Positions 3,477 through 51,138 of a DNA stretch of 64,000 nt are shown one piece after another. The DNA is taken from NCBI GenBank assembly GCA_017557405.1, contig JAFYYV010000001.1, positions 62,001-126,000 of the forward strand, written 5' to 3'. The notes under the pieces are model-generated. The model did not search any database, was not told the DNA's origin, and saw nothing but the letters and a program-made list of their open reading frames with translations. A program made the position numbers and the translations under genes. Within the stretch, counting starts at the first letter, position 1. Every line of letters starts with the position of its first letter. The stretch is from Prevotella sp. GTDB lineage: Bacteria > Bacteroidota > Bacteroidia > Bacteroidales > Bacteroidaceae.

Positions 3477-3564
3477 TCAAAGCTATGGAATGACCCGGTC
3501 AAAGCTATGCAATGAGGCGGTCAAAGCTATGGAATGACGAGGTCAAAAGCCACAAATGACAAAC
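3477..3564 (+). repeat. 22-bp-period dyad array 1 (four units)
   Basis: Four head-to-tail 22-bp units begin at 3477, 3499, 3521 and 3543. Each is a 17-bp T-C-A...T-G-A element plus a 5-bp spacer (CCCGG, GGCGG, CGAGG, CAAAC). Units 1 and 3 are identical over 17 bp, unit 2 differs by one base, and unit 4 has diverged. It sits in the 678-bp divergent gap between the lyase-like gene and the ECF sigma gene, a gap that otherwise holds only promoters and the inverted repeat next to it. Confidence 0.8.
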
Positions 3565-3587
3565 CACATCTGAACGAAGAGCGTACG

Positions 3588-3699
3588 AACGAACAGTTGA
3601 ACAGTTTTTCGTGTGAAACTGCAACAGAATGTTATTATTATATTATATAATAATAAAAGTATTATGCACGCACAAATAGAAACTGTTCAACTGTTCGTT
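3588..3699. repeat. 20-bp perfect inverted repeat around an AT palindrome
   Basis: The left arm 3588-3607 (AACGAACAGTTGAACAGTTT) is the exact reverse complement of 3680-3699. The 72-bp interior contains a near-perfect AT palindrome at about 3632-3656. No poly-T tract follows and no ORF is enclosed. It could form a cruciform or a long RNA hairpin, or be the remnant of a small mobile element. Confidence 0.75.
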
Positions 3700-3866
3700 C
3701 GCTGTTCATACAACCATTACTCTTAAATACTTTCATTATGTAAACATTGATCCTTTATCTTTTTCGTACCAAGACGTTTTGTGTCAAAATACACTAAAAA
3801 CAACGAGGAAAAACTATAGAAAATGAGAAAAACACATGGAAAAATGGTTTTTTTTCGAAAATATCA

Positions 3867-7500: not shown

Positions 7501-8574
7501 GAGCAGACGTTGGCCGAGCGTGCCGATCAGGCATCTGATGCTGCTAAGGCTGGCGCAAACACCGAGCTCTCACTCGTAGAAGGTATGTTGAAGGATGGAA
7601 CCATCGCCGATGCTGACATTCCCGAAGAAATCGAGAAGATCAAGGCTGTGAAGAGAGAACTCTTCCGCCCGATTCCTGGCGTTTATCCTGCTGACTACAC
7701 TGAGTTCGCACTCCAGAACCCGAAATTCCAGGAAGACTGGACAGGTTGGGAGCGCACCAACACCAGCAATACCAGCATTGAAAAGTGGGATGTGCTCGTG
7801 AATGGTGATACCCAGAACTGGGGCTTCGCTGAGGGTTGGAACAATGCCGAGTTCAGCTTCGATGTCTACCAGATTGTCACCGACCTGCCAGAAGGTGTTT
7901 GGGAGGTTCGTGCAAATGGTTTGGCTCGTCTGTCCGACAACCCCACCAACATGACACTTGGATTCAACACACAGGATCCTGATGCAATTGCAGCTCTCTA
8001 TGAGCAATATGCTGACAGCATCGCAGTGCTCTATGGTAACGACGACGCTGTATTCCTTGCTAATCCTTACCTGATTCCTGAAGCTGCTAACAACGCAGAG
8101 ATCATGAAGGACAACAATGGTGGCGTAGGTGGTTGGTATGAGATGGTCGACGAGAGCGATCCCGACGATCCTACAAGCTACTTCATCCCGAACAACCGTC
8201 AGGCATTCGCCGGTCGTCTTGGAGTTGACTGGTACAAGGCTGATGGCAGCGTTGATCCTGATATGAAGTGGTTTGAGAACGTGGTGGTTACCTACGTGGA
8301 TGATAGTGGTGTCTTGAGACTCGGTTGGAAGTGCGACCACTGCAAACCTAATGCATGGGCTCCTGCTACCAACTTCCGCATCATCTACTACGGACCAGAC
8401 GATCCTCGTAAGGAGAACACTGGCATTCGCGAAATCACGACTACACAACCCGTTGAGCGCACTATCTTCAGTGCTGACGGACGCCGCATGAACGGTCTCA
8501 ACAAGGGCTTGAACATCATCAAGACCAAGACTGCTGACGGCAAGACCGTGATCCGCAAGGTGGTGGTGAAGTAA
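4555..8574 (+). CDS. Large secreted modular protein with T9SS-like tail
   Basis: A 1339-residue protein with a signal peptide (about 1-23, ending V-M-A-Q). It appears modular: an N-terminal beta-rich part (about 35-200); Ala-rich helical segments (about 205-320, 500-640 and 920-1040) resembling FIVAR/spacer helices; and three jelly-roll-like segments beginning with F-x-N-x-x-F-x-x-x-x-x-G-W (about 338-490, 690-900, 1060-1270) that look like carbohydrate-binding modules. The last 40 residues (I-F-S-A-D-G-R-R-M-N-G-L...K-V-V-V-K) resemble the short C-terminal signals of Prevotella type IX-secreted proteins. No catalytic domain is recognised. A surface adhesin or glycan-binding protein is inferred. 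It probably forms an operon with the ECF sigma gene and ends at a strong terminator. Confidence 0.85.
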   Translation: MKHYFRFATLLLLAALTSIEVMAQDRIRPIPVTQKTFEVGTDYYIYNVGRGMFANKGEAWGTQATLGYQGMKYQVRHDDDMPEGYYYLYSEETDRNNKVMFRTNSDGNAGSGVCATFVDNNKGDNAYWTITPFNDNVTGGFLIQIPSDTKGGYAYVESQAWGAQWDHWGKFFDSNGITYGIFFDIEIADNPDNVTWQFVAVDDYETYQDGLDEEAIAAFNAANDLKAWIDLAKLRGADVSAAEELYNNTATSSTDLRKALSDLKPYVDAQKAAVKLQDAITEAGEYGVDATEAEAVLNNPDATASEITAATDALNKEIKIARTAAVLAGATSEEAIDLFSENIFENATFTDNISGWTSTTTVQNKAHKSPNANEQVSCGVDGINAEGKFYENWDPSATKAVGKMYQKQEKLPAGLYVGKLSVFVNNLADNSGDAPKQFAYLNDVKSPLTQGKFKSYSMFLQLAEQGDIEMGFEQTEAVANWLGIDNASLKYYGSGADNYKGLAADLVGADWEAEFVDEEGQWPIHTSSVREAVSNAIFAGGAATSPEAGIAAAMNSIEAVEALRTNIQLWKDLEKLIYGDEKTSGLYDQQYALDTEGWEDDDAFRTLIDQLAEKLDLVLDDPANADWDNAELKKKMDRMNQLYDAALEYHAKNALNVGDDLTDKTKFGEKFLKNPDFQNAEDFLYGWDANPKGSTGFFGGYPDVLECWNSNFNISQEVKLPKDGAYRLQTRAFYRTGGVAEAYSRWNAANGENVGDNKSCAFLYAGNLTSPIANVFNTLYTEDELNKIGAFYDVERLQTGNNGGQFTTSNSLNPWEFPYDFILTDADQGLYSPNGVFSASYIFNCYKGFDKNSALEDIAQKYTSYIDFIGEQNEVVRMGVKAENILSAGWTIFAPYHLYYMGNDPAVMRPVMDETINLAKELAKEPMMADSLKALNAAITAADGAASGAELMNAYKAINAAFGPAKSSANAYKTLADAKKDLEQTLAERADQASDAAKAGANTELSLVEGMLKDGTIADADIPEEIEKIKAVKRELFRPIPGVYPADYTEFALQNPKFQEDWTGWERTNTSNTSIEKWDVLVNGDTQNWGFAEGWNNAEFSFDVYQIVTDLPEGVWEVRANGLARLSDNPTNMTLGFNTQDPDAIAALYEQYADSIAVLYGNDDAVFLANPYLIPEAANNAEIMKDNNGGVGGWYEMVDESDPDDPTSYFIPNNRQAFAGRLGVDWYKADGSVDPDMKWFENVVVTYVDDSGVLRLGWKCDHCKPNAWAPATNFRIIYYGPDDPRKENTGIREITTTQPVERTIFSADGRRMNGLNKGLNIIKTKTADGKTVIRKVVVK

Positions 8575-8635
8575 TCTAGAATCTAGTTTATCTAGAACAC
8601 CTAGGATATCTAGAAATTCTAGAACATCTAGGTAA
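8575..8635 (+). repeat. 9-bp tandem array based on TCTAGAACA
   Basis: TCTAG or CCTAG cores start at 8582, 8591, 8600, 8609, 8618 and 8627, an exact 9-bp spacing, with one further core at 8575 immediately after the stop codon. The array separates the stop from the terminator. Confidence 0.8.
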
Positions 8636-21342: not shown

Positions 21343-22590
21343 ATGGAATACAATACAGCAACTTTGCCAAACGGACTACGCGTGATTCATCGCAAAGACC
21401 CATCGGCGGTGATTTTCTGCGGATACCAGATTGCCGCTGGCACACGCCACGAGCGACCTGGACAAGAGGGGTTGGCTCATTTCTGCGAGCACACCACGTT
21501 CAAAGGGACTTCCCGCCATTCGTCGCTCCAGATTCTGAATGCACTCGAGAGTGTTGGCGGCGAACTGAATGCATTCACCACCAAAGAGCGTACGGTTTAC
21601 TATGCAGCCACGATGAAGGAACACCTCAGCCGCACTATCGACCTGCTGGGCGACATCGTGTTCAACAGCATCTATCCGCAAAACGAAATCGACAAAGAGG
21701 TGGAAGTCATCTGCGACGAGATTGAGAGTTACAATGATTCGCCTGCCGAACTCATTTACGATGAATTCGAAAACATCGTCCATGCTGGCCATCCATTGGG
21801 TCACAACATCCTGGGTAATGCAGAGGGAGTGCGCCGATTCAAGACCGCTGACGCTTTGGCTTTCACACGCGAGCATTATCGCACCGACAACGCCATCTTC
21901 TTTGCTTGTGGCGACATCGATTTCAAATGGTTGTTGAAACAATTGGTGAAAACTACCCCTGCCACCCCAAATCAACCTATTGAATCCTCCCCTTCGGGGG
22001 GAGGACAGGAGGGGGCTACCCATCTCCCCCTAAACAGGGGGGCAGAGGGTCTTACTTTCACCATGCAAACCCACCAGGCGCACGTGATGATAGGTTGCCG
22101 CTCTTATCCCATCAATCATCCCATGCGAATGCCGCTCTATGTAATGAACAACAACTTGGGCGGTCCAGCAATGAACTCGCGATTGAACGTCTGCCTGCGC
22201 GAACGCAATGCACTCGTTTATACCGTTGAGAGCTCAGCCGCCTTCTATACCGACACGGGCACATGGAGCGTTTATTTTGGCTGCGACCACCACGACATAA
22301 AGCATTGCCTGCGGTTGGTTAGACGCGAACTTGACAAATTGATGCAACGTCCTCTGCCCGCCCGACAACTGCAAGCCGCCAAACGCCAACTGAAAGGACA
22401 ATTGGGAATCTCCACCGACAACCGCGAGCAGTTTGCCATCGACTTCGGCAAGAGTTTTCTCTACAACGGCTGGGAGAAGGACATTCAACAGCTTTTCCAA
22501 CGCATCGATGACGTTACTGCCGAGCAGATGCAACAAGTGGCGCAAGAACTCTTCCGCCCTGAAAACCTCACAACGCTCATCATCAAATAA
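21343..22590 (+). CDS. M16 (pitrilysin-type) zinc peptidase
   Basis: A 415-residue protein. The inverted zinc motif H-x-x-E-H is present as H-F-C-E-H (near residue 46), with a downstream Glu cluster E-V-E-V-I-C-D-E-I-E (near 117), as in mitochondrial-processing-peptidase-like M16B proteins. The second half (about 230-415) is the inactive M16-C domain. It has no signal peptide and is probably cytoplasmic. Residues about 208-236 (S-S-P-S-G-G-G-Q-E-G...N-R-G-A-E-G) are a low-complexity insertion between the two halves, encoded by a palindromic GC-rich repeat that also occurs in the glycosyltransferase gene at 49174. The frame stays open, so it is probably a tolerated linker extension. Confidence 0.9.
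   Translation: MEYNTATLPNGLRVIHRKDPSAVIFCGYQIAAGTRHERPGQEGLAHFCEHTTFKGTSRHSSLQILNALESVGGELNAFTTKERTVYYAATMKEHLSRTIDLLGDIVFNSIYPQNEIDKEVEVICDEIESYNDSPAELIYDEFENIVHAGHPLGHNILGNAEGVRRFKTADALAFTREHYRTDNAIFFACGDIDFKWLLKQLVKTTPATPNQPIESSPSGGGQEGATHLPLNRGAEGLTFTMQTHQAHVMIGCRSYPINHPMRMPLYVMNNNLGGPAMNSRLNVCLRERNALVYTVESSAAFYTDTGTWSVYFGCDHHDIKHCLRLVRRELDKLMQRPLPARQLQAAKRQLKGQLGISTDNREQFAIDFGKSFLYNGWEKDIQQLFQRIDDVTAEQMQQVAQELFRPENLTTLIIK
21985..22050 (+). repeat. GC-rich palindromic repeat inserted in the M16 gene
   Basis: A hairpin TCCTCCCC-TTC-GGGGGGAGGA is followed by CAGGAGGGGGCT, and then a second hairpin of CTCCCCCT and AGGGGGG. The first 32 bp match the copy at 49367-49398 with about three differences. 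Confidence 0.8.
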
Positions 22591-22622
22591 AGGCAATCAT
22601 TTCAGAACTGCCACAAAGCATC

Positions 22623-22649
22623 TCTGACGACACTAGAACTGTCGTCAGA
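22623..22649. other. 10-bp perfect hairpin after the M16 gene
   Basis: TCTGACGACA (22623-22632) is exactly complementary to TGTCGTCAGA (22640-22649) across a 7-nt loop, 33 bp after the stop. No T-run follows, so it may be an RNA 3'-end stabiliser rather than an intrinsic terminator. Confidence 0.6.
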
Positions 22650-22654
22650 TGTTA

Positions 22655-22808
22655 TCAAGCCATTCCTCTTATAAAGTAAAATAGATTATTTTGCACGGTA
22701 AAATAGACTATTTTAGTCAGTAAAATAGACTATTTTGCTTTATGAAATAGATTATTTTACAACACCAAAGCTATGGTTTTATTCCATCATAGCTTACATC
22801 GATACTTC
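22655..22808 (+). repeat. 22-bp-period dyad array 3 (up to seven units)
   Basis: Units start at 22677, 22699, 22721, 22743 and 22765. Units two to four carry TAAAATAGACTATTTT or a close variant, and unit 22699 is a perfect 17-bp palindrome. The unit at 22765 switches to CCAAAGCTATGG, the core of the other arrays, without losing the 22-bp phase. Weaker in-phase units starting TCA are at 22655 and 22787. The gap 22591-23096 holds no gene; it contains this array, heptamers, a terminator and an inverted-repeat element. Confidence 0.8.
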
Positions 22809-23096: not shown

Positions 23097-24710
23097 TTAA
23101 AGCTGTGGACCAGCAGCTACGAGAGCCTTACCAGCCTCGTTGCCTTCGTACTTCTTGAAGTTCTTGATGAAGCGTGCTGCGAGATCTTCGGCCTTCTTGT
23201 TCCACTCAGCTGCGTCAGCGTAAGTGTCGCGTGGGTCGAGGATGTTGGTGGCTACGCCCTCAAGCTCTGTGGGAACCTCGAAGTTGAAGTAAGGAATTCT
23301 CTTGGTGGGAGCCTTCAGGATAGCACCGCCCAGGATAGCATCAATGATACCACGAGTATCCTTGATGCTGATGCGCTTGCCAGTTCCATTCCAACCGGTG
23401 TTCACCAGATAAGCCTTGGCGCCGCTCTTCTCCATGCGCTTCACCAGTTCCTCAGCATACTTGGTAGGATGCAACTCGAGGAATGCCTGACCGAAGCAAG
23501 CCGAGAAGGTAGGAGTGGGCTCTGTGATACCACGCTCTGTACCAGCGAGTTTTGCGGTGAAACCAGAGAGGAAGTAGTACTTTGTCTGCTCGGGATCGAG
23601 GATGCTAACAGGAGGCAGTACACCGAAAGCGTCAGCAGAAAGGAAGATCACGTTCTGAGCCTCAGGACCAGCGCTCTTGCCGTTTACCTTGGCAACGATC
23701 TTCTCGATATGGTCGATAGGATAGCTTACGCGAGTGTTCTCGGTCACGCTCTTGTCAGCGAAGTCGATCTTGCCTTCAGCGTCAACAGTAACGTTCTCCA
23801 GCAGAGCGTCGCGACGGATTGCGTTGTAGATGTCGGGCTCGCTCTCCTTGTCGAGGTTGATCACCTTTGCATAGCAACCACCTTCGAAGTTGAACACACC
23901 ATTGTCGTCCCAACCATGCTCGTCATCACCGATGAGCAGACGTTTCGGGTCGGTAGAAAGAGTGGTCTTACCGGTTCCAGAGAGGCCGAAGAAGATAGCG
24001 GTGTTCTTACCTTCCATATCGGTGTTGGCAGAGCAGTGCATAGAAGCGATACCCTGCAGCGGGAGGAAGTAGTTCATCATCGAGAACATACCCTTCTTCA
24101 TCTCACCACCATACCATGTGTTGATGATGGCCTGCTCGCGGGTTGTGGTGTTGAAAGCCACACAAGTCTCTGAATTCAGACCCAGCTCTTTGTAGTTCTC
24201 AACCTTTGCCTTCGAAGCGTTATAGATCACGAAGTTAGGCTCGAAGTTCTCCAGTTCCTCAGCGGTGGGCTGGATGAACATGTTCTTCACGAAATGAGCC
24301 TGCCAAGCCACTTCCACGATGAAGCGCACAGCTAGACGTGTTCCTTCGTTGGCACCGCAGAAAGCGTCCATCACATAGAGATCCTTGTTGCAGAGCTCCT
24401 TGATGGCAATGTCTTTCACCTTTGCCCAAACCTCTTCGCTCATGGGTTTGTTGTCGTTCTTGTATTCCTCAGAAGTCCACCACACCTTGTCGTGGCTCTG
24501 TGCATCGTCAACGATATACTTGTCCTTAGGCGAACGACCAGTGTAAATACCAGTCATCACGTTCACGGCGTCGAGCTCGGTGTTCTGGCCCTTGTCAAAA
24601 CCAGTCAGCCCAGCCTTGGTCTCCTCTTCAAAGAGGTACTCATACGATGGATTGTGAGCAATCACGGTGGAACCCGTAATGCCATACTGCGTTAAATCTA
24701 ACTTTGCCAT
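23097..24710 (-). CDS. pckA: Phosphoenolpyruvate carboxykinase (ATP)
   Basis: 537 residues from the ATG at 24710, the normal length of the ATP-dependent enzyme; the longer frame to 24788 runs through the -7 box. The kinase 1a P-loop [12 protein letters not shown] is near residue 245, followed by the metal-binding G-D-D-E-H-G-W-D and F-E-G-G-C-Y-A-K segments; the adenine-binding N-T-G-W-N-G-T-G-K is near 440. It interconverts oxaloacetate + ATP with PEP + CO2 + ADP in the cytosol. In Prevotella-like anaerobes it usually runs in the CO2-fixing direction during succinate fermentation (family knowledge). Single-gene unit with its own promoter, convergent with the M16 gene. Confidence 0.97.
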
Positions 24711-24760
24711 AATTGCTATTAAGTATTTATAATTGTGAATATTATCTTCTAATTCGGATG

Positions 24761-24768
24761 CAAAGTTA
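24761..24768 (-). promoter_or_regulatory. pckA: -7 box for pckA
   Basis: TAACTTTG on the minus strand, 50 bp before the ATG at 24710. The -33 region is AT-rich without a clear TTTG. Confidence 0.6.
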
Positions 24769-24857
24769 CGAAATAATTCATAATTCATAAATCATAGTTC
24801 GTAATTATTTGCTTCTTAATGATTGTTTTTAGGTTAAAGAATTAAAAAACAAAGACT

Positions 24858-33430: not shown

Positions 33431-33603
33431 GAAAGGAAGTTAAAAGGAAGTTAAAAGGAAGTTAAAGGGACAATAGCCCAATTTGTAAATCAATTGTACA
33501 TCGTAAATTGTCAAATTGTAAATTGCTCACGCTCCCAAACTCCTATTAAAAGCATACGTCCCTTTAGACCCTTCCACTTCCCTTTAAACTCTTTACGCCT
33601 TTT
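33431..33603. repeat. Inverted-repeat element, copy B, with an inner AT-rich repeat
   Basis: The left side has three GGAAGTTAAAA units ending AAGGGAC; the right side has GTCCCTTTAGACCCTTCC and CTTTAAACTCTTTACGCC, nearly matching copy D. Between them an AT-rich block (33478-33527) contains TAAATCAATTGTACAT, which recurs at 49093. The gap 33403-33674 has no gene. Confidence 0.65.
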
Positions 33604-50385: not shown

Positions 50386-50481
50386 CTTAAAAACTTGGTA
50401 TTTTTATTTACAAAATCTTGTCGACTTTTCCGTTCAATCTAGAAAAGAAATACGAGTAAGGAAACGACTTTTTCGCTCCAA

Positions 50482-50613
50482 TTTCCTCATTTCCCACAAG
50501 CAGAATTGTCATATGTATCATTTGAGGCGCTTAGATGTGGCAAATGACACGCTTACTTATCGCATCTAACGAGCTCATATGCCACATCTGACCACCTCAT
50601 TCCATAGCTTTGA
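50482..50613 (-). repeat. 22-bp-period dyad array 2 (six units)
   Basis: Read on the minus strand from 50613, five 22-bp units each start T-C-A or T-T-A and end A-T-G-A or T-A-A at position 17, followed by a 5-bp spacer; a sixth, weaker unit lies at 50503-50482. The first unit (TCAAAGCTATGGAATGA) is identical to units 1 and 3 of array 1, while the others share only the frame and partial dyad. Confidence 0.8.
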
Positions 50614-51138
50614 CAATGCTGTAAAATGTAAAGAAAACAGAAACTGCTGATTATCAACGATTTCCAAGAACGCTCAAAACTCGCGTATTTGCCCACGAGG
50701 AAGAATTTTTTCAAAACGTTGGCCTTCTCGTGGCACCAAAATTCGGAATTTTCTTGACAATAGAAGGAGGTGTTCCTAAGTAGTGGCTTTTACCAACAAC
50801 TCCGTTACATTATGGTTACAAAAAGGTCTCACAATTGTTTCAATTGGTAGTGAAAAAGGGCAATTGTTACCGCCATTTTCTGCAACGAGACTGCCATTTG
50901 AGCACAAAATGCCTTTCAAATAGGGACTAAGTGTTGATTTTTTGAATCGCCTAAATGTGTGCAAAGTGTAGAGAAAAACATCGAAACAAGCGTTTTTTAC
51001 TTGTTTTTGCGGCTTTTTAGAGGAAAAATCAGCATGTTTTTGTCCTTCTTACAGGTTTTGAAACACAAGTGTCAAACCCTTGTGAATTCATATCTAATTG
51101 ATAATCAGTATTTTAGATGAAAATCTAATGACTAAACA
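50614..51138. other. AT-rich gap with no gene seen
   Basis: Part of the 1315-bp gap between the GT4 gene and the 3162-residue protein gene. A 62-codon minus-strand frame at 50964-50776 has no promoter or recognisable motif and is not believed. No tRNA, terminator or mobile-element ends were seen. Confidence 0.5.

Follow-up and report, generated by a model that had tools for sequence, protein, structure and literature searches.

The window, i.e., the whole stretch of 64,000 nucleotides that was analysed, contains a 506-bp gap between two convergent genes, an M16-peptidase-like gene and a phosphoenolpyruvate carboxykinase gene, in which a tandem array with a period of 22 bp is located (array 3, Table 1). 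Genes were delineated by simple open-frame calls and with no gene finder. The array contains a block of four near-palindromes (read directly; unit form TAAAATAGA[C/T]TATTTT-like): TAAAATAGATTATTTTG at position 22677, TAAAATAGACTATTTTA at 22699, TAAAATAGACTATTTTG at 22721, and TGAAATAGATTATTTTA at 22743, the last of which carries TGAAAT. The initial annotation had described one perfect 17-bp palindrome among the units at 22677-22764, which was confirmed for the unit 22699-22715 (8/8 arm pairs); the units at 22677, 22721, and 22743 have 6/8, 7/8, and 6/8 arm pairs. Following the block, CCAAAGCTATGG continues the array in exact 22-bp phase, with the unit CCAAAGCTATGGTTTTA at 22765 (4/8 arm pairs) and, 22 bp on, TCATAGCTTACATCGAT at 22787. 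For the degenerate units upstream of the block, the phase is favoured only by the six flanking 17-mers jointly. The array was detected by TRF (22675-22758, period 22, score 98), and the best 44-column stretch of the gap at lag 22 had 35/44 matches, whereas 300 sequences simulated from the same gap with a first-order Markov model reached no more than 24.

Table 1. Features of the window that are referred to in the text, with positions counted from its first nucleotide
Feature	Position	Strand	Basis
Array 1, four F1 units	3477..3559	+	reading, TRF
M16-family peptidase gene, convergent, on the upstream side of array 3	21343..22590	+	Pfam PF00675/PF05193
Three degenerate F1-like units, same register, upstream of the F2 block	22611..22671	+	weak
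F2 block of array 3, four 17-bp near-palindromes with 5-bp linkers	22677..22759	.	direct reading, TRF
Two F1-like units (CCAAAGCTATGGTTTTA, TCATAGCTTACATCGAT), downstream continuation of the lattice	22765..22803	+	reading, phase test
Phosphoenolpyruvate carboxykinase (ATP) gene, on the downstream side of array 3	23097..24788	-	Pfam PF01293
343-bp copy of a dispersed MITE-like element of ~366 bp, carrying the third array	50418..50760	-	
Third array, five F1 units within the dispersed element	50509..50613	-	reading

The units of array 1 are TCAAAGCTATGGAATGA, two units ending in ...GCAATGA and ...GGAATGA, and TCAAAAGCCACAAATGA; TTTTG precedes the array and CAAAC follows it. This array is adjoined by a long dyad with GAACAGTT doublets (window 3581-3707), and similar sequence was observed next to two further F1 arrays of contig C44 (at ~146.3 and ~160.5 kb). 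Elsewhere in the window, AAAGGAAGTTA is repeated 3.5 times at 33432-33470 with a period of 11 bp, half of 22, and 9/18-bp repeats of the ATCTAGAA type are located at 8574-8631, directly after a gene end and before a tRNA-Met.

Unit families and their phase

Exact copies of the core CAAAGCTATGG were found 58 times in the 3.56-Mb genome to which the window belongs, compared to 3 copies of the reversed control; the core is not present at chance frequency. In their 22-bp row layout, the copies belong to a family, F1, defined by TCA-N11-TGA plus a 5-bp linker. Its vocabulary of inner words is small (AAGCTATGGAA, AAGCTATGCAA, AAGACCACAAA, AAAGCCACAAA, GATGCCACATG, and others), and some units are inverted. 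A second family, F2, has the form TAAAATA...TATTTTA, and both families are phased and dispersed. Among 39 core clusters, 36 are in no open frame of at least 60 aa, one lies within a 297-aa frame, and two within frames below 100 aa only. A generic three-unit F1 pattern (at most 1 mismatch in 18) matched at 286 places in the own genome, at 338 in the closest relative found (G398; MAG RUG11493, locus L065), and at none for the reversed control. Exact matches were confined to the own genome, both in a set of 61 genomes from the phylum and in one of 60 genomes from the order, and a CAAAGCTATGG pair at 22-bp spacing was present in 2/150 same-genus genomes, the own one included. The F1 word is narrow although the 22-bp register is not. 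In 698 kb of stretches from the own genome, 50 F1 arrays were present, and 3, 4, 5, 6, and 7 units were counted in 5, 15, 17, 8, and 5 of them, respectively.

Nine F2 arrays were found in the examined stretches, four in the own genome and five in G398. For each, the six flanking 17-mers were scored as F1 at all offsets of the 22-bp period, and offset 0 was the best in 9/9 arrays, with a mean of +0.8; at the remaining 21 offsets, the means ranged from -22 to -37. The score was negative even at offset 0 in three of the nine (window -1.5, L201 -3.9, L041 -6.6), in array 3 because its upstream units are degenerate (median of offsets -29.6), and one of the six flanking 17-mers in each of L201 and L204 is itself of F2 type. 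The switch to the core at 22765 without loss of phase, as initially annotated, is thereby corroborated, and since F2/F1 switches in phase recur at other loci, it is no accident of the array 3 gap. The annotation had further regarded the main sequence of array 3 as unrelated to that of the other arrays; F1 and F2 units are neighbours in one lattice elsewhere, so they are not simply unrelated.

At the orthologous gap in G398, the same kind of composite array is present with TAAAATAAATTATTTT in all four units, i.e., the palindrome has been changed in every unit between the two genomes. The condition initially named as refuting, slippage products lacking in close relatives together with a core at chance frequency, therefore does not hold. 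Matches to the F2 pattern in the own genome carry TAAAATAG in 18/23 cases, and four of the other five are located in one array. In G398 (74 + 47 matches), TAAAATAAATTATTTT was found with one exception among the matches listed; further variants in G398, e.g., AAAATAATTTATTTT, are not captured by the pattern.

The register across genomes and an array within a gene

Arrays were identified by a lag scan at a threshold of at least 70% identity over 44 columns after removal of low-complexity sequence. In 80 Prevotellaceae loci (1.47 Mb), which were retrieved through their relationship to the M16 gene, represent a single neighbourhood, and contain one gene array repeatedly, 37 arrays in 31/80 loci had lag 22, and the next lag, 21, was found for 13 arrays. 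In 40 pieces from 20 same-genus genomes (753 kb, not repeat-selected), 21 arrays from 10/20 genomes were found at lag 22 and at most 7 at every other lag. The outgroup (40 pieces, 20 genomes, 728 kb, several pieces short) consisted of 14 Bacteroidota genomes with the label same class and 6 with the label same phylum, none being labelled same order; it yielded 2 arrays at lag 22 and 5 at lag 21. The scan of the own genome yielded 38 arrays, 6 of them without the core, from stretches that were picked around CAAAGCTATGG and are hence non-random. Lag 23 was found for 0 arrays in the own genome, 2 in the 80 loci, 3 in the same-genus pieces, and 0 in the outgroup. The lag-22 register is enriched in the genus, which supports the common generating or binding mechanism proposed initially; the three gaps with common period and core on which that proposal was built are real, but they belong to one genus-wide phenomenon and are not three isolated cases.

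Unit words vary by species (e.g., TTCCCAGGCTGGGAATGTTTTG, GATACTGGAATATCATTAGGGT, ATACACGTTTGTATAATTAGTT), and the register is constant. Dyad symmetry (22-column profile, p ≤ 0.05 against column shuffles) was significant in about two thirds of the lag-22 arrays (14/21 same-genus, 25/37 Prevotellaceae), compared to 17/83 arrays with other periods, and about one third of the lag-22 arrays (7/21 and 12/37) were without it. A layout of arm 6, centre 5, arm 6, and linker 5 fits F1, F2, and a family with TTCCC arms (see below); an even dyad was seen by eye in some lag-22 arrays.

Several further arrays were observed in the course of these searches. The longest of the same-genus sample comprises ~11 near-identical 22-bp units (L309:370-613), and the same piece contains two more arrays with other words. 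The pattern TCA N12 TGA N4, searched in 398 genomes, was found 0 times in the own genome, and its matches include 22-bp arrays with other words in four genomes (G060, G215, G311, G355); the reversed control matched at 10 places in G343 and at few in other genomes, perhaps in further 22-bp arrays. A palindromic-looking 22-bp array, AAACCTGCTCAGGTTT, is located at L240:10582-10684 in a genome that carries the label same class and belongs to another family; the lattice may extend beyond Prevotellaceae. In a viral collection, 8 stretches exactly match an F1-type pattern of 7 half-sites, and three of these, in the viral contigs L318, L324, and L325, are near-regular 22-bp arrays of other words with TCA/TGA spacing (lag-22 identity 0.82, 0.69, and 0.82, compared to 0.11-0.24 at lags 21 and 23). 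A phage origin was considered on this account; a link to viruses is unlikely for the F1 arrays but conceivable for the lattice as such.

In 9/80 loci, an array lies within one orthologous gene, whose product matches Thump_like and PG_1098_Fer in Pfam (scanned for the L107 copy alone). Its arms are TTCCC in 8/9 loci and, judged by eye, GTCCG...CGGAC-like in L106. As 22 is no multiple of 3, the three units of the gene array are read in three frames. Seven TTCCC copies were compared by codon position (L096 was omitted, its array being identical to that of L102, as was L106 with its other arms). Mean pairwise identity at positions 1/2/3 was 0.92/0.88/0.94 in arm columns, 0.58/0.45/0.51 in spacer columns, and 0.82/0.82/0.46 in a conserved neighbouring block. 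The arms are conserved at all codon positions, and the constraint is therefore on the nucleic acid and not on the protein. Judging from the sequences compared, it could be due to selection on putative binding sites or to homogenisation from other arrays.

Two-unit matches to TTCCC-N5-GGGAA were searched in genomes other than those of L096 and L102, and were found at 8, 5, 10, 17, 6, and 17 places in G399-G404 (gene array included), at 1 place in G406, and at 0 in the L106 genome and five others, the own one among them; the reversed control gave 0. TTCCC arms are thus genome-wide, with 5-17 places in the 6 arm-bearing genomes compared to 0-1 in the 7 others. A second array with AGTCCGA...TCGGACT units was observed inside a 609-aa open frame at L114:14589-14695, in a genome that also carries the TTCCC family.

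These results bear on the question of whether the arrays are neutral. Palindromes that arose by template switching may have been copied by slippage and conversion, 22 bp being a preferred slippage length with no function. Neighbouring units are indeed often near-identical (L049, L309, L040), and all units of an array change block-wise. However, periods other than 22 are much rarer, the outgroup pieces are without an excess at lag 22 (2 arrays compared to 5 at lag 21), two unit types occur in one register, and within the gene it is the linkers and centres that vary, the arms being constrained at every codon position, so that this origin is considered improbable. Between a mechanism that generates the arrays and one that binds them, the arm conservation inside the gene would favour the latter.

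The dispersed element and known repeat systems

The third array of the window is carried by an element of which 14 copies (343-366 bp; 10 in the own genome, 4 in G398) were present in the stretches examined. Its length is nearly fixed, its ends are conserved (TTGTCAA.../...GTCGACAA), and the F1 array is in mid-element; a terminator-like hairpin was seen by eye, as were hairpins near both ends. The copy in the window is one 22-bp unit shorter than a 365-bp copy, and none was found downstream of the orthologous left neighbour in G398. In total, the element is present in one of the two genomes and absent in the other at five places, of which four are anchored on both sides and the window copy on the left side only; such presence and absence at orthologous sites is in line with a MITE. 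Most of the 50 F1 arrays of the own genome fall outside element copies. Stand-alone arrays differ between the genomes as well: F1 units of the own genome at C44_38/39 correspond to GTACATGCCACATGTAC-like units in G398, and the gap corresponding to an F1 array at L040:18346 is without an array there. The positions of array 3 and of the C44_30/31 array are occupied in both genomes.

Next in rank after the rows of dimer sites proposed below, and rather unlikely, is a transposase-related reading: small non-autonomous elements resembling BrickBuilt (see below) would contain the arrays either as their minisatellite bodies or as repeats to which a transposase binds, and the binding word of this transposase would differ between lineages while its sites are spaced at 22 bp. 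The variable presence of the ~366-bp element together with its F1 array argues for it. So do the array ends, as 26/50 F1 arrays start with TTG next to TCA, 28/50 end with TGA next to CAA, and 16/50 have both, and the two near-identical five-unit F1 arrays with common flanks in the own genome (L013:15822 and L193:16093), the latter of which is conserved in place in G398. It is opposed by the single empty site examined, at which there was no clean target-site duplication and the insertion measured ~545 bp with extra flanks, by array 3 and the C44_30/31 array keeping their places between two species, by the TTCCC arms of the array in the THUMP-like gene in 8 loci, and by the sole Y1 transposase gene being without a 22-bp array in its 3-kb locus. 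This gene (L145; G000:C16 near 298144; Y1_Tnp match) has an open frame of ~351 aa, which is longer than usual for the family.

Several known systems share part of these features. CRISPR arrays consist of repeats parted by unique spacers of ~30 nt, whereas the linkers here are 5 bp and the period is 22 bp. Plasmid iterons and phage operator rows (e.g., lambda OL/OR) are rows of sites of ~17-22 bp placed near two helical turns apart, but they occupy a single locus beside a rep or repressor gene and are not dispersed over the chromosome. BrickBuilt, a MITE with a 23-nt minisatellite in Porphyromonas gingivalis and P. gulae (single family, 1 to 22.8 copies), is similar in being from Bacteroidales, intergenic, and dispersed, in having short tandem units of about two helical turns, and in having some units inside a longer element with leader and tail (PMC4596501). 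It differs in that the available excerpts of its description mention neither a register that is constant between species nor units that exchange their sequence, and no palindrome term is used (PMC4596501). Moreover, the period here is 22 and not 23, and BrickBuilt is always intergenic while 12/37 arrays in the 80 loci are genic. The leader and tail segments of BrickBuilt have small inverted-repeat ends; the 14 element copies have conserved ends. PINSR is a 188-bp intergenic repeat of Prevotella intermedia/nigrescens with 177-184 copies and no terminal inverted repeats, and about three quarters of its sites are common to two strains according to the accessible text (PMC4755523). The description is that of a single 188-bp repeat and does not mention a 22-bp lattice (PMC4755523). 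Its length is near 8.5 x 22, and it may or may not be related to the arrays described here. REP/BIME sequences with their RAYTs are likewise dispersed extragenic palindromes with lineage-specific words, sometimes in tandem, but have a GTAG/CGTC tag and, in the excerpts available, no fixed centre-to-centre register (PMC3733652, PMC12306157). A Y1 transposase gene flanked by palindromes, as in REP/RAYT, was not found here, and the RAYT/REP idea was rejected on account of the array-free locus of the only Y1 gene of the genome. No description of a 22-bp lattice in Prevotella was found in the accessible parts of the open-licence PubMed Central literature.

Placement, folding, and a proposed row of dimer sites

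None of the 50 F1 arrays of the own genome is located in an open frame of at least 100 aa. Convergent, divergent, and tandem gaps contain 13, 10, and 21 of them, and 6 are at stretch ends; with base fractions of 0.021, 0.030, and 0.055 for the three kinds of gap, the array counts are close to gap lengths. Rows of promoter operators were rejected, as these arrays have no promoter preference. Genic lag-22 arrays amount to 1/21 in the same-genus pieces and to the above-mentioned 12/37 in the 80 loci, nine of which are in the THUMP-like gene. Pooled over three samples, 28/85 placed intergenic arrays were convergent where ~17 were expected from gap lengths, i.e., the excess is mild.

This excess would fit tandem small hairpins acting in transcripts (as terminators, RNase or protein targets, or small RNAs), and so would the folding of the arrays, since 12/12 array strands folded better than the mean of dinucleotide shuffles (z -1.96 to -6.6); rows of palindromes, however, tend to fold well. 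When units were permuted in 45 F1 arrays, the true order folded no better (mean z -0.26, 3/45 at p ≤ 0.05), and a long RNA hairpin in F1 was therefore rejected. For the F2 composites, the same test gave p values of 0.03-0.45, which may arise because mixing F1 and F2 blocks itself costs pairing; the 3/9 values at p ≤ 0.05 (0.03, 0.04, 0.05) leave room for an RNA or cruciform role of F2. RNA hairpins could also be formed by TTCCC-type arms. A function at the level of RNA is very improbable overall, given that nothing at the RNA level would readily account for a constant 22-nt register, that F1 arms pair at few positions, that F1 unit order does not matter for folding, and that no Rfam family besides one tRNA was found in the window at gathering thresholds.

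Intrinsic curvature by phased A-tracts was discarded in view of the G+C-rich arrays (TTCCC, GTCCG, L119, L140), which by our reasoning keep the register. Wrapping by an Lrp-like octamer would be attractive in view of F1 rows of mostly 4-5 sites, but no 22-bp precedent appeared in the accessible part of the literature searched. A cognate regulator encoded close to the arrays was considered as well, but around four F3/F4 arrays (one in the own genome, three in G398), no shared DNA-binding gene was seen by eye.

A fixed register combined with words that change, mix, are mostly palindromic, and are kept at all codon positions is most simply explained by a row of dimer sites. With a probability of about 0.5, the arrays are rows of such sites for one or a few related predicted DNA-binding proteins of Prevotellaceae with drifting specificity. 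Each putative site would span ~17 bp, with two 6-bp arms around a 5-bp centre, and a distance of 22 bp from centre to centre would place half-sites every 11 bp in alternating orientation. We infer that such a protein exists and is dimeric, and that neighbouring dimers touch, in which case the register would be fixed whatever the arm sequence; if arms drift together with the protein, lineage-specific words would result. F1 and F2 units could occur together in one lattice if related proteins bind or if specificity is relaxed. For the rows of 3 to 7 F1 sites, there may be an architectural role (bridging, wrapping, anchoring), which is likelier than an operator role because F1 rows are mostly intergenic and show no promoter preference, and some rows would travel inside the ~366-bp element.

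The dimer-site reading has to accommodate several observations that point elsewhere: the symmetry of F1 arms is only partial (TCA...TGA), tandem duplication plus conversion would likewise produce near-identical neighbouring units and their block-wise change, about one third of the lag-22 arrays lack a significant dyad while 17/83 arrays of other periods have one, and the F1 score at offset 0 is negative in three of the nine F2 arrays. More tentatively, and somewhat short of an even chance, the full picture would be a chromosome-wide 22-bp lattice of Prevotellaceae on which a dimeric protein sits side by side with the register fixed by its contacts, words evolve per lineage, mixed words co-assemble, and rows are kept in a gene.

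It is unusual for a class of repeats to conserve its spacing, but not its sequence, across a bacterial genus, and such repeats would tend to escape searches for repeats or motifs that are based on sequence. If the arrays are mobile DNA, they form a widespread family in which the means of measuring 22 bp is still to be explained. If a protein reads them, Prevotella, a dominant genus of gut and rumen, would have a hitherto undescribed system of regulation or chromosome organisation whose specificity evolves fast.
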